Below are positions 12,133 through 42,805 of a DNA stretch of 64,000 nt, piece by piece. The position numbers and the translations under genes are program-made. The stretch covers positions 722,164 to 786,163 of the forward strand of contig NZ_CP067007.1 in assembly GCF_018128925.1 (NCBI RefSeq). The letters run 5' to 3'. A model generated the notes under the pieces. It was not told where the DNA came from and searched no databases. It saw nothing but the letters and a program-made list of their open reading frames with translations. How positions within the stretch are numbered: position 1 is the stretch's first letter; the number at the start of each line of letters is the position of its first letter. This DNA comes from Nitrosopumilus sp. K4 (GTDB lineage: Archaea; Thermoproteota; Nitrososphaeria; Nitrososphaerales; Nitrosopumilaceae).

Positions 12133-13413
12133 ATGGGTAAGATCGAGATTGAAAAGCAAGATTCTGTTAAGCTTTACAAAATTAGAAAAATTCTTGATGA
12201 GTTGTCCCAAAAATCAGGAAGAGGAACCGAGCTTATCAGCGTATACATACCTAAAGGAAAACAATTGCACGAAATCATAGGTACCCTACAGCAAGAACAA
12301 GGAACAGCTGATAACATCAAATCAGATCTTACCAGAAGCCACGTGGTAGATTCACTTGGAAAAGTTGTTCAGAGACTAAAACTATACAAAAAAACACCAG
12401 AACGTGGACTAGTAATGTTTTGTGGAGCATTGCCACCTGAAGGCGGAGGTCCATTGGGAAGTGAAGTTGTTCAGGTATGGGAAATTGATCCTCCAAAAGA
12501 CTTGAATCAATATCTGTATAGATGCGATGATCATTTTCATGTCGACATTCTAAAAGACATGTTAAAAGATGACAACCTAATCGGATTCTTGGCAATTGAT
12601 GCAAAAGATGCAGGATGGGGATTATTACATGGTGATAAGATCGAGGTTCTAGCACAAACAGGTTCAGGTGTTGCTGGAAAACACAGACAAGGAGGACAGT
12701 CTGCTAAAAGATTCCAAAAACTAAGAGAGATGGAATTATCATACTACTATAACAGAGTGGCTGAAACTACAAGAGAATACTTTATCGATATTTATCCAAT
12801 CAAAGGATTAGTAATTTCTGGACCAGGTCCAACAAAAGAAGATTTCATTAATGGTAATTATCTAGAATACCGTCTTCAAAATATGATCATTGCAACAATT
12901 GATTCATCGTATTCAGGAGCAGAAGGAATCAGAGAGGCATTTGCAAAAGCAGGGGACATTCTGTCAGATTTTAGGATGGTTGAAGAAAAGAAACTTGTTG
13001 AAGATTTATTCAAAGAAATCAATGGTCGTACCGGATTAGGCACATATGGATTAAAAGAGGTGATTGAACTTCTCAAAAATAATGTCGTCAAAACCTTACT
13101 GATAACAGACAATACAAACTTGCATAGAATAGAGGGAAAATGTAAGAGATGTCAAAACATTCAAGAAGAAATTGTAGAAAGGCCTGAAGTCATTCCAAAA
13201 AAGACAGAGTTTGCAAACAATCCGTGCCCGGGTTGTAAGTCAATGGAAGTAGAAGCAAACGAACAAGACATAGTGGATTATCTGGAATTGCTTGCAGCAC
13301 AAACTGGAACCCAACTTGAAGTAATTTCAGGAACAGCAGAACATGGAGTTATGTTATCCAGTCTAGGAAGCGTTGGTGCAATTTTAAGATACAATCCAGG
13401 CCACACTAAATAA
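12133..13413 (+). CDS. prf1: Peptide chain release factor aRF1
   Basis: A 426-residue archaeal class-1 release factor that reads all three stop codons and triggers peptidyl-tRNA hydrolysis. The stop-decoding NIKS motif is at residues 61-64 and the catalytic GGQ at 187-189. Domain 3 has a zinc-type pair of CxxC motifs (C337/C340, C365/C368). The ATG is preceded by a Shine-Dalgarno-like AGGAG at 12118-12122, unlike the leaderless neighbours. Ends 8 bp inside the convergent HIT gene. Confidence 0.97.
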   Translation: MGKIEIEKQDSVKLYKIRKILDELSQKSGRGTELISVYIPKGKQLHEIIGTLQQEQGTADNIKSDLTRSHVVDSLGKVVQRLKLYKKTPERGLVMFCGALPPEGGGPLGSEVVQVWEIDPPKDLNQYLYRCDDHFHVDILKDMLKDDNLIGFLAIDAKDAGWGLLHGDKIEVLAQTGSGVAGKHRQGGQSAKRFQKLREMELSYYYNRVAETTREYFIDIYPIKGLVISGPGPTKEDFINGNYLEYRLQNMIIATIDSSYSGAEGIREAFAKAGDILSDFRMVEEKKLVEDLFKEINGRTGLGTYGLKEVIELLKNNVVKTLLITDNTNLHRIEGKCKRCQNIQEEIVERPEVIPKKTEFANNPCPGCKSMEVEANEQDIVDYLELLAAQTGTQLEVISGTAEHGVMLSSLGSVGAILRYNPGHTK

Positions 13414-40660: not shown

Positions 40661-40798
40661 TTAAAATCTTCTACTACGGTGTTTTGGTAAACATTCACGA
40701 CAATACACTGGTCTTCCTTCTTTTGGTTCAAAAGGAACTTCAGAGTCTTTGCCGCAATCTGCACATGTACATTTGTACATTTTTCTGTCTTCAGACAT
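40661..40798 (-). CDS. CxxC-x20-CxxC zinc microprotein
   Basis: A 45-residue ORF: CTCADCGKD, 19 residues, CRECLPKH. This matches the archaeal CxxC...CxxC single-zinc family I recall. A basic tail (KHRSRRF) suggests nucleic-acid contact. Confidence 0.75.
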   Translation of the reverse strand: MSEDRKMYKCTCADCGKDSEVPFEPKEGRPVYCRECLPKHRSRRF

Positions 40799-40895
40799 GA
40801 TCATTTAAGAGTTGTCGACTATAAGAACGGTAGGTATTTTGAGACAGAGAAACAATGGTTCATCTTGTTAAAATAGGAGGTAAAGAGGCAAGAGT

Positions 40896-41080: not shown

Positions 41081-42139
41081 GTGAAGAGTCATTTAGAAAC
41101 ATCAGAAATTTCACCTGATGAATGGTTATCAATAAATCAATTTCTATTTGAAATAAAACAAATTGAAAAACCATGTGTTTCAGTATACTATCCATATGGA
41201 AAAGGCACAGAAACAATATCATTATTAAAAAATACAAAACGAGAAGAATCTATCGAGAGAATAGAAAAGGAGATTGAAAAAAGAATTTCAAGGTTAAAGA
41301 AACACCCTACAACGGTCGGAAAAACTACAAAAACATTATGTATTTTCGGATGGATTCAGAATGGAAAAGTCACCATTAAAGAAATTGGAACATCAAAAAA
41401 ATTGCCATATATTTACACAGTGAGCAAAAAACCACACATCAAACCATTTTTTGATATTCTAAAAACAAATCACGATGTGATTTTTGTAATACTCGATCAA
41501 AAATCAGCTAAAATTCAAAAATTTCACGGTGGGCAAAGTATAGAAGAAGCAAAACTAGGAATTGATCTTCGAGGAAGGCATAAAAAAGGTGGGCAAAGTC
41601 AAGGAAGGTTTTTGAGAGCCCGCAATACAAAGATTCACGTTTTTTTTAAAAAAATTGCTGCAAAAATACGAATGATGAGTCAAGACGTAAACCTCATATT
41701 AATAGGAGGAAACGGCAATGCCAAAACAGAATTCTTTGATGAATTAGACACAGAATCAAAAAAGAAATGCAGATTTGTAACAAATGTTTCTTTTTCTACT
41801 CCAAAATCTAAGGTTTATGAAAAAATTATCCATCATTTATACAAGCAAAGAAGACAACATGTATCAGACGTCATATCTAGATATGAAAAACTCGTCAAAG
41901 AAGGACTCACTGCCAAGAAAAATAGCGTAATTTACAAGGCATTAGAGTTAGGAGCTGTGGAAACACTGATTGTTTCTGCTGACTACCACACAAGCACACA
42001 ATTCAGGAAAATAATGAAAATGTTGGAGATTGCAAAAAACACAGCAGCAAAAATAGAATTTGCCACATCGCCTAAAATAATTGAAAAACTAGACATTAAT
42101 GATTCAGTTTTGGCCATTTTACGCTATAGAATCAAATGA
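41081..42139 (+). CDS. Diverged GGQ release-factor paralogue (aeRF1/baeRF-like)
   Basis: A 352-residue protein with the eRF1 three-domain layout. The catalytic loop RHKKGGQSQGRF puts GGQ at 170-172 and compares with KHRQGGQSAKRF in aRF1. An additional GGQ occurs at 150-152. The stop-decoding NIKS is absent: the matching segment reads LLKNTKREES. C-terminal domain keeps the eRF1 domain-3 pattern (YKALELGAVETLIVSAD) but has no zinc CxxC pair. It could hydrolyse peptidyl-tRNA on stalled ribosomes without reading a stop codon, like the Vms1/VLRF1/baeRF groups. GTG start. Confidence 0.75.
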   Translation: MKSHLETSEISPDEWLSINQFLFEIKQIEKPCVSVYYPYGKGTETISLLKNTKREESIERIEKEIEKRISRLKKHPTTVGKTTKTLCIFGWIQNGKVTIKEIGTSKKLPYIYTVSKKPHIKPFFDILKTNHDVIFVILDQKSAKIQKFHGGQSIEEAKLGIDLRGRHKKGGQSQGRFLRARNTKIHVFFKKIAAKIRMMSQDVNLILIGGNGNAKTEFFDELDTESKKKCRFVTNVSFSTPKSKVYEKIIHHLYKQRRQHVSDVISRYEKLVKEGLTAKKNSVIYKALELGAVETLIVSADYHTSTQFRKIMKMLEIAKNTAAKIEFATSPKIIEKLDINDSVLAILRYRIK

Positions 42140-42469: not shown

Positions 42470-42805
42470 ATGGCTGCAAGAAAAAGAACAGCAAGAAAAC
42501 CAGCTAGAAAGGTCAAAAGAGCAGTAAGGAAAACAGCTACTAAAGCAAAAAGAACAGCAAGGAAAGCTAAGAGAACAGTAAGGAAAGCTAAGAAGGCAAC
42601 TAGAAAAGTTGCAAGAAAAGCATCTGGCACTGTAAGCAAGGCAAAAAGAAATGCTGAAAAAGTAGCTAACAAGAGAAAACGCGATCTTTCAAAAGCAGAT
42701 AACAAAGTAAAGAGTCTCAAGAAGGCACTGAAATCTGCTGAAAAAGCTGCAAGAAAAAAGAAATCAGTATATCAAAAGGCATTGAAAAGGGCAAAGTCCC
42801 TATAG
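42470..42805 (+). CDS. Histone-H1-like Lys/Arg/Ala-rich protein
   Basis: A 111-residue protein built almost entirely from K, R and A in short repeats such as KAKRTARKAKRTVRK and KKATRKVARKA, with a coiled-coil-like C-terminal third. No globular domain. It resembles the C-terminal tail of histone H1 or bacterial Hc1 proteins and should bind DNA or RNA non-specifically. Its DNA is correspondingly purine-rich. Located near the Alba, TFB and ParB-domain genes. Confidence 0.75.
   Translation: MAARKRTARKPARKVKRAVRKTATKAKRTARKAKRTVRKAKKATRKVARKASGTVSKAKRNAEKVANKRKRDLSKADNKVKSLKKALKSAEKAARKKKSVYQKALKRAKSL

Follow-up and report, generated by a model that had tools for sequence, protein, structure and literature searches.

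The window analysed here is a stretch of 64,000 nucleotides from Nitrosopumilus sp. K4, to which all plain position numbers refer. It contains the gene for the canonical aRF1 and the gene for a further GGQ protein of the eRF1 superfamily, P0001, that lacks the NIKS motif. The features of interest are as follows.

12133-13413, plus strand: canonical aRF1 with NIKS, GGQ, a zinc ribbon (two CxxC pairs) and all three Pfam domains
40664-40801, minus strand: small CxxC...CxxC protein MSEDRKMYKCTCADCGKDSEVPFEPKEGRPVYCRECLPKHRSRRF, under the ORF size cut-off
41081-42139, plus strand: P0001, GGQ protein of the eRF1 superfamily without NIKS; GTG start, 352 amino acids
41081-41431, plus strand: N domain of P0001 (residues 1-117), with helices and strands arranged in an order like that of eRF1 domain 1 and no NIKS loop
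41432-41815, plus strand: M domain of P0001 (residues 118-245), matching eRF1_2
41528-41536, plus strand: additional GGQ of P0001 (residues 150-152, KFHGGQSIE), in a beta-hairpin turn and unconserved
41576-41611, plus strand: catalytic loop RHKKGGQSQGRF of P0001 (residues 166-177), conserved in the family, with GGQ 170-172 at 41588-41596
41816-42136, plus strand: C domain of P0001 (residues 246-352), Pelota/eRF1_3-like, without a zinc ribbon and ending in AILRY (345-349)
42470-42805, plus strand: lysine/arginine-rich, histone H1-like protein of 111 amino acids without a Pfam match

The start position of P0001 is common to its orthologues, which indicates that the open reading frame is real. 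In Pfam searches the M domain matched eRF1_2 with 53.9 bits (cut-off 27.1), baeRF_family10 with 42.5 bits and acVLRF1 with 36.5 bits; the C domain matched eRF1_3 below threshold, and the N domain gave no match to eRF1_1. The acVLRF1 match was rejected as a discriminator because most archaeal aRF1s match this model too. A first-pass annotation had described an eRF1-shaped protein with GGQ at residues 170-172 in the same window as a true aRF1 at 12133-13413. Both descriptions were borne out: P0001 is a real reading frame with three eRF1-superfamily domains and the loop RHKKGGQSQGRF, and NIKS and the two CxxC pairs are present in the aRF1.

Genome Context

The K4 genome holds three matches to eRF1_2, namely aRF1, P0001 and a third protein at C1:1412240, which is probably Pelota, since its match is weak and GGQ is lacking. 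NFACT (RqcH/NEMF type) and Pth2 are also encoded. Upstream of P0001 in the window lie Alba and TFB on the other strand, and downstream a 62-amino-acid protein, a lysine-rich protein and a ParB_N protein. Members of the family occur in several unrelated neighbourhoods; most often TFB is the gene directly upstream, on the opposite strand, or an FAD-dependent oxidoreductase-like gene follows downstream. An operon partner was rejected, as the neighbours differ among genomes and none is conserved.

Distribution of the Family

A scan of GTDB genomes returned 55 related loci, and virtually every one carries the label Nitrosopumilus, Nitrosopumilales or marine Thaumarchaeota. Among 398 genomes of the phylum, matches at E ≤ 1e-22 were found solely within Nitrosopumilaceae (30 genomes). 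The family is present in 53 of the 131 Nitrosopumilaceae genomes with a completeness of at least 90% and a contamination of at most 5%, and in 9 of 20 genera when all 136 Nitrosopumilaceae genomes are searched. About 60% of Nitrosopumilaceae thus lack it, and elsewhere in the sampled phylum the sole exception is a distant relative (L071) in a different family of the same order; this locus, found on a short contig in a draft assembly, shares 31% identity and carries GGW. Disrupted copies were seen in four genomes (G300, G277, G528, and G529), where assembly error is possible. The absence from most of Nitrosopumilaceae and the several broken copies indicate that the function is dispensable.

Two divergent copies, both with GGQ (L034 and L041), occur in Nitrosopumilus sp. 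b1. A contig-end fragment titled Rhodobacter lobularis (NZ_LFTY01000001.1) is a Nitrosopumilaceae-type copy and probably reflects contamination or misassembly. No viral or phage homologues of P0001 were found, and the plasmid homologues were haloarchaeal aRF1-like proteins only. These plasmid proteins (L150-L154) have 358 amino acids and are annotated prf1; one of them, P0003, retains both NIKS and GGQ and lacks a zinc ribbon, and some of the loci lie near toxin-antitoxin-type genes (nucleotidyltransferase/DUF86, PemK/MazF, and VapC). Our literature search found no paper describing the family. The family is a well-supported, strongly constrained eRF1-superfamily paralogue of Nitrosopumilaceae with a patchy, accessory distribution.

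Loss of the Codon-Reading Loop

In a profile alignment to 17 aRF1s, the NIKS site falls in a 7-residue gap of P0001, while BLASTP places NTKR (residues 51-54, a short turn) opposite the aRF1 NIKS. The motif is gone under either alignment, which agrees with the absence of NIKS reported by the first-pass annotation. YxCxxxF was likewise not found in P0001. Apart from a few exceptions, archaeal aRF1s retain NIK, and aRF1s of about 374 amino acids elsewhere in the phylum carry NIKL and have neither CxxC nor YxCxxxF. The loss of NIKS is therefore informative, whereas that of YxCxxxF is not. For the same reason the missing zinc pair, also listed in the first-pass annotation, is indeed absent but does not set P0001 apart, and it was rejected as a diagnostic feature, being normal in short aRF1s.

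Conservation and Selection

The motif RHxKGGQSQxRF occurs in every collected Nitrosopumilaceae sequence of the family that spans the loop, and the GGQ loop and the helix after it are conserved almost absolutely. Loss of GGQ was seen solely in the GGW protein from outside Nitrosopumilaceae, which is distant and possibly not orthologous. The C-terminal LRY is invariant across the family. Close pairs gave dN/dS values of 0.06-0.19 over the whole gene; at residues 161-190 most pairs had a ratio close to zero and the exceptions mainly involved one sequence (L025), and where dS was measurable, dN in the loop was close to zero in most pairs.

The additional GGQ at residues 150-152 is present as first annotated, but carries no weight. 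It is private to the K4 genome, relatives having HGSQ, HGNQ, HGDK and similar sequences, and it forms the turn between two beta strands in the AlphaFold2 model. It was therefore rejected as a catalytic site and is judged incidental.

Predicted Structure and Relationships

AlphaFold2, run on a 30-member alignment, gave a model of P0001 with a mean pLDDT of 86, a pTM of 0.79 and an aRF1-like order of elements. The fold is predicted to be eRF1-like, as the first reading of the locus had supposed, and the GGQ loop directly precedes the long M-domain helix 172-199. The top PDB match by E-value in Foldseek was the archaeal aRF1 4af1 (1.6e-17). The whole-chain TM was 0.60 for Balon and 0.51 for aRF1, with a lower identity to Balon, and domain orientation rather than kinship may be the source of the higher value.

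The profile alignment to the 17 aRF1s covered residues 14-352 (E 4e-29, probability 99.8), and comparison with a baeRF profile, a thin one of two sequences, gave E 6e-4 and a probability of 28%. In a tree with aRF1s, pelota and bacterial baeRF/Balon-type proteins other than family 10, the P0001 family was monophyletic (100/99) with a long stem. When pelota served as the outgroup, the family stood beside bacterial baeRF/Balon-type proteins (92/93), a placement that involves long branches and is not decisive: neither a grouping with the aRF1s of its own order (p-AU 0.0995) nor one with all aRF1s (p-AU 0.148) was rejected.

P0001 is neither a classical aRF1 nor a Pelota, an aVLRF1 or a Balon. With classical aRF1 (TIGR03676) it shares the order of the three domains, an H-x-x-GGQS loop and the LRY C-terminus, but it has neither the NIKS loop nor the zinc ribbon, sits on a long separate branch and misses the equivalog cut-off (77.9 vs 234.7 bits). 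Pelota/Dom34 shares with P0001 the type of C domain and, probably, docking in the A site, but lacks GGQ and has an Sm-like N domain, whereas P0001 has GGQ and an N domain that aligns with aRF1. The aVLRF1/Vms1 clade offers the logic of a codon-blind hydrolase, and the P0001 loop also fits GGxSQ; however, an aVLRF1-like protein from the same phylum as K4 (L120, genome G116) combines an N-terminal coiled coil with GGSSQ and lacks a Pelota-type C domain, whereas P0001 has GGQSQ, no coiled coil and a retained C domain. The baeRF family 10 (PF18854) retains the catalytic glutamine (PMC6514570), as does P0001, which exceeds the curated cut-off (42.5 vs 27.1 bits) but scores higher with eRF1_2; PF18854 also matches in archaeal control genomes. 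No baeRF10 was found in 60 Pseudomonadota genomes beyond an archaeal contaminant. Balon and Rv2629-type hibernation factors have an eRF1-like three-domain fold, have lost NIKS and match P0001 weakly in sequence, and the LRY resembles the LRY/YRY-like C-terminal motif of bacterial baeRF relatives. However, Balon has no GGQ, which all Nitrosopumilaceae members of the P0001 family retain, and P0001 stays far under the cut-offs of the NCBIfam RHF models (42/320 bits for the Balon type and 31.3/330 bits).

Divergent aRF1-like proteins were also seen in genomes of family f18, at L142:997-2286 (GGQSQ, without NIK) and L148:1039-2328 (GGSSQ with NIKD); genomes G231 and G242 have two matches each.

Discussion

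The combination of a lost codon-reading loop, an invariant GGQ loop, a retained LRY in the C domain and strong purifying selection is best explained by a codon-independent hydrolase. From sequence and model, we give roughly an even chance to the view that the family is a dedicated Nitrosopumilaceae eRF1 paralogue acting as a codon-blind peptidyl-tRNA hydrolase. P0001, possibly delivered by aEF1A, would dock in place of the A-site tRNA on ribosomes that have no readable stop codon in the A site, owing to a truncated mRNA, a missing mRNA or a stalled codon. Its GGQ would swing into the peptidyl-transferase centre and release the nascent chain, leaving the ribosomes to splitting by Pelota/ABCE1. 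Vms1, in which an eRF1-like domain hydrolyses peptidyl-tRNA without codon reading (PMC5989216), is an experimental precedent for this logic. The presence of aRF1, a probable Pelota, NFACT and Pth2 in the K4 genome was counted in favour of the codon-blind hydrolase, as were the profile match to aRF1 over the full length and the aRF1-like predicted fold; the GGW of the outlying homologue, the patchy distribution with broken copies, the lack of a conserved operon partner and the retained N domain, for which a purely 50S-acting protein would have no need, count against it. The stop-codon-independent hydrolase for stalled ribosomes proposed by the first-pass annotation thus fits the anatomy of the protein, while the genomic context is uninformative and a role in dormancy is a live alternative and the main rival.

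P0001 could conceivably be a ribosome dormancy factor that, like Balon, sits in the A site of idle ribosomes, an explanation we consider unlikely although several observations point to it. A 2026 survey of 4026 archaea lists Nitrosopumilaceae among the few lineages in which no hibernation factor could be identified, and in screening for Balon it demanded loss of both NIKS and GGQ, a filter that would exclude the P0001 family (PMC13324472). HPF/RaiA had no match in the K4 genome and was found in 2 of 61 relatives; the Balon-type model scores P0001 above aRF1 (42 vs 19.8 bits), and the whole-chain TM and the tree position point the same way. Yet the model match is far under its cut-off, the GGQ loss that defines Balon has not occurred, aRF1 gives a far stronger profile match than baeRF, the TM may reflect domain orientation, and most Nitrosopumilaceae lack the family. 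Such a dormancy factor would have kept GGQ to clear leftover peptidyl-tRNA or for structure. P0001 might instead perform an archaeal RQC release step on 50S-peptidyl-tRNA after splitting, as a counterpart of Vms1/ANKZF1, which we think somewhat less probable still. NFACT is encoded in K4 and in 57 of the 61 genomes that the search covered, and the loop satisfies both GGQ and GGxSQ, the VLRF1 pattern of Burroughs and Aravind. GGQSQ, however, also occurs in some aRF1s, no bVLRF1 Pfam match was obtained for P0001, and NFACT is nearly universal whereas the P0001 family is patchy; retention of the Pelota-type C domain and of the N domain also speaks against it.

A second, divergent termination factor with changed codon specificity would account for the resemblance to aRF1 over the full length, and eRF1 paralogues with variant NIKS exist in ciliates (PMC2613156); in P0001, however, the loop is deleted rather than substituted, and the intact aRF1 of K4 is fully suited to termination, which makes this explanation highly improbable. 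Hardly credible is a decaying or non-functional relic, to which the broken copies and patchy presence might point, given the strong purifying selection and the invariant GGQ loop of intact copies. More tentatively, the codon-blind hydrolase could be extended to an undescribed, Nitrosopumilaceae-confined family with a catalytically live GGQ that serves in rescue, dormancy or both, as hydrolase and A-site plug, although we hold this broader role to be improbable.

If the broader role is correct, the family would fill a rescue and/or dormancy role in a lineage without a known hibernation factor. The family also shows that surveys which demand GGQ loss can miss ribosome-binding eRF1 paralogues. 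What is known of how archaea handle stalled ribosomes comes mainly from Pelota/ABCE1, and the literature surveyed names no archaeal enzyme that releases the peptide in this process. If P0001 is indeed a codon-blind hydrolase, an ammonia-oxidising group that ranks among the most abundant archaea of the ocean would possess a codon-blind release factor.
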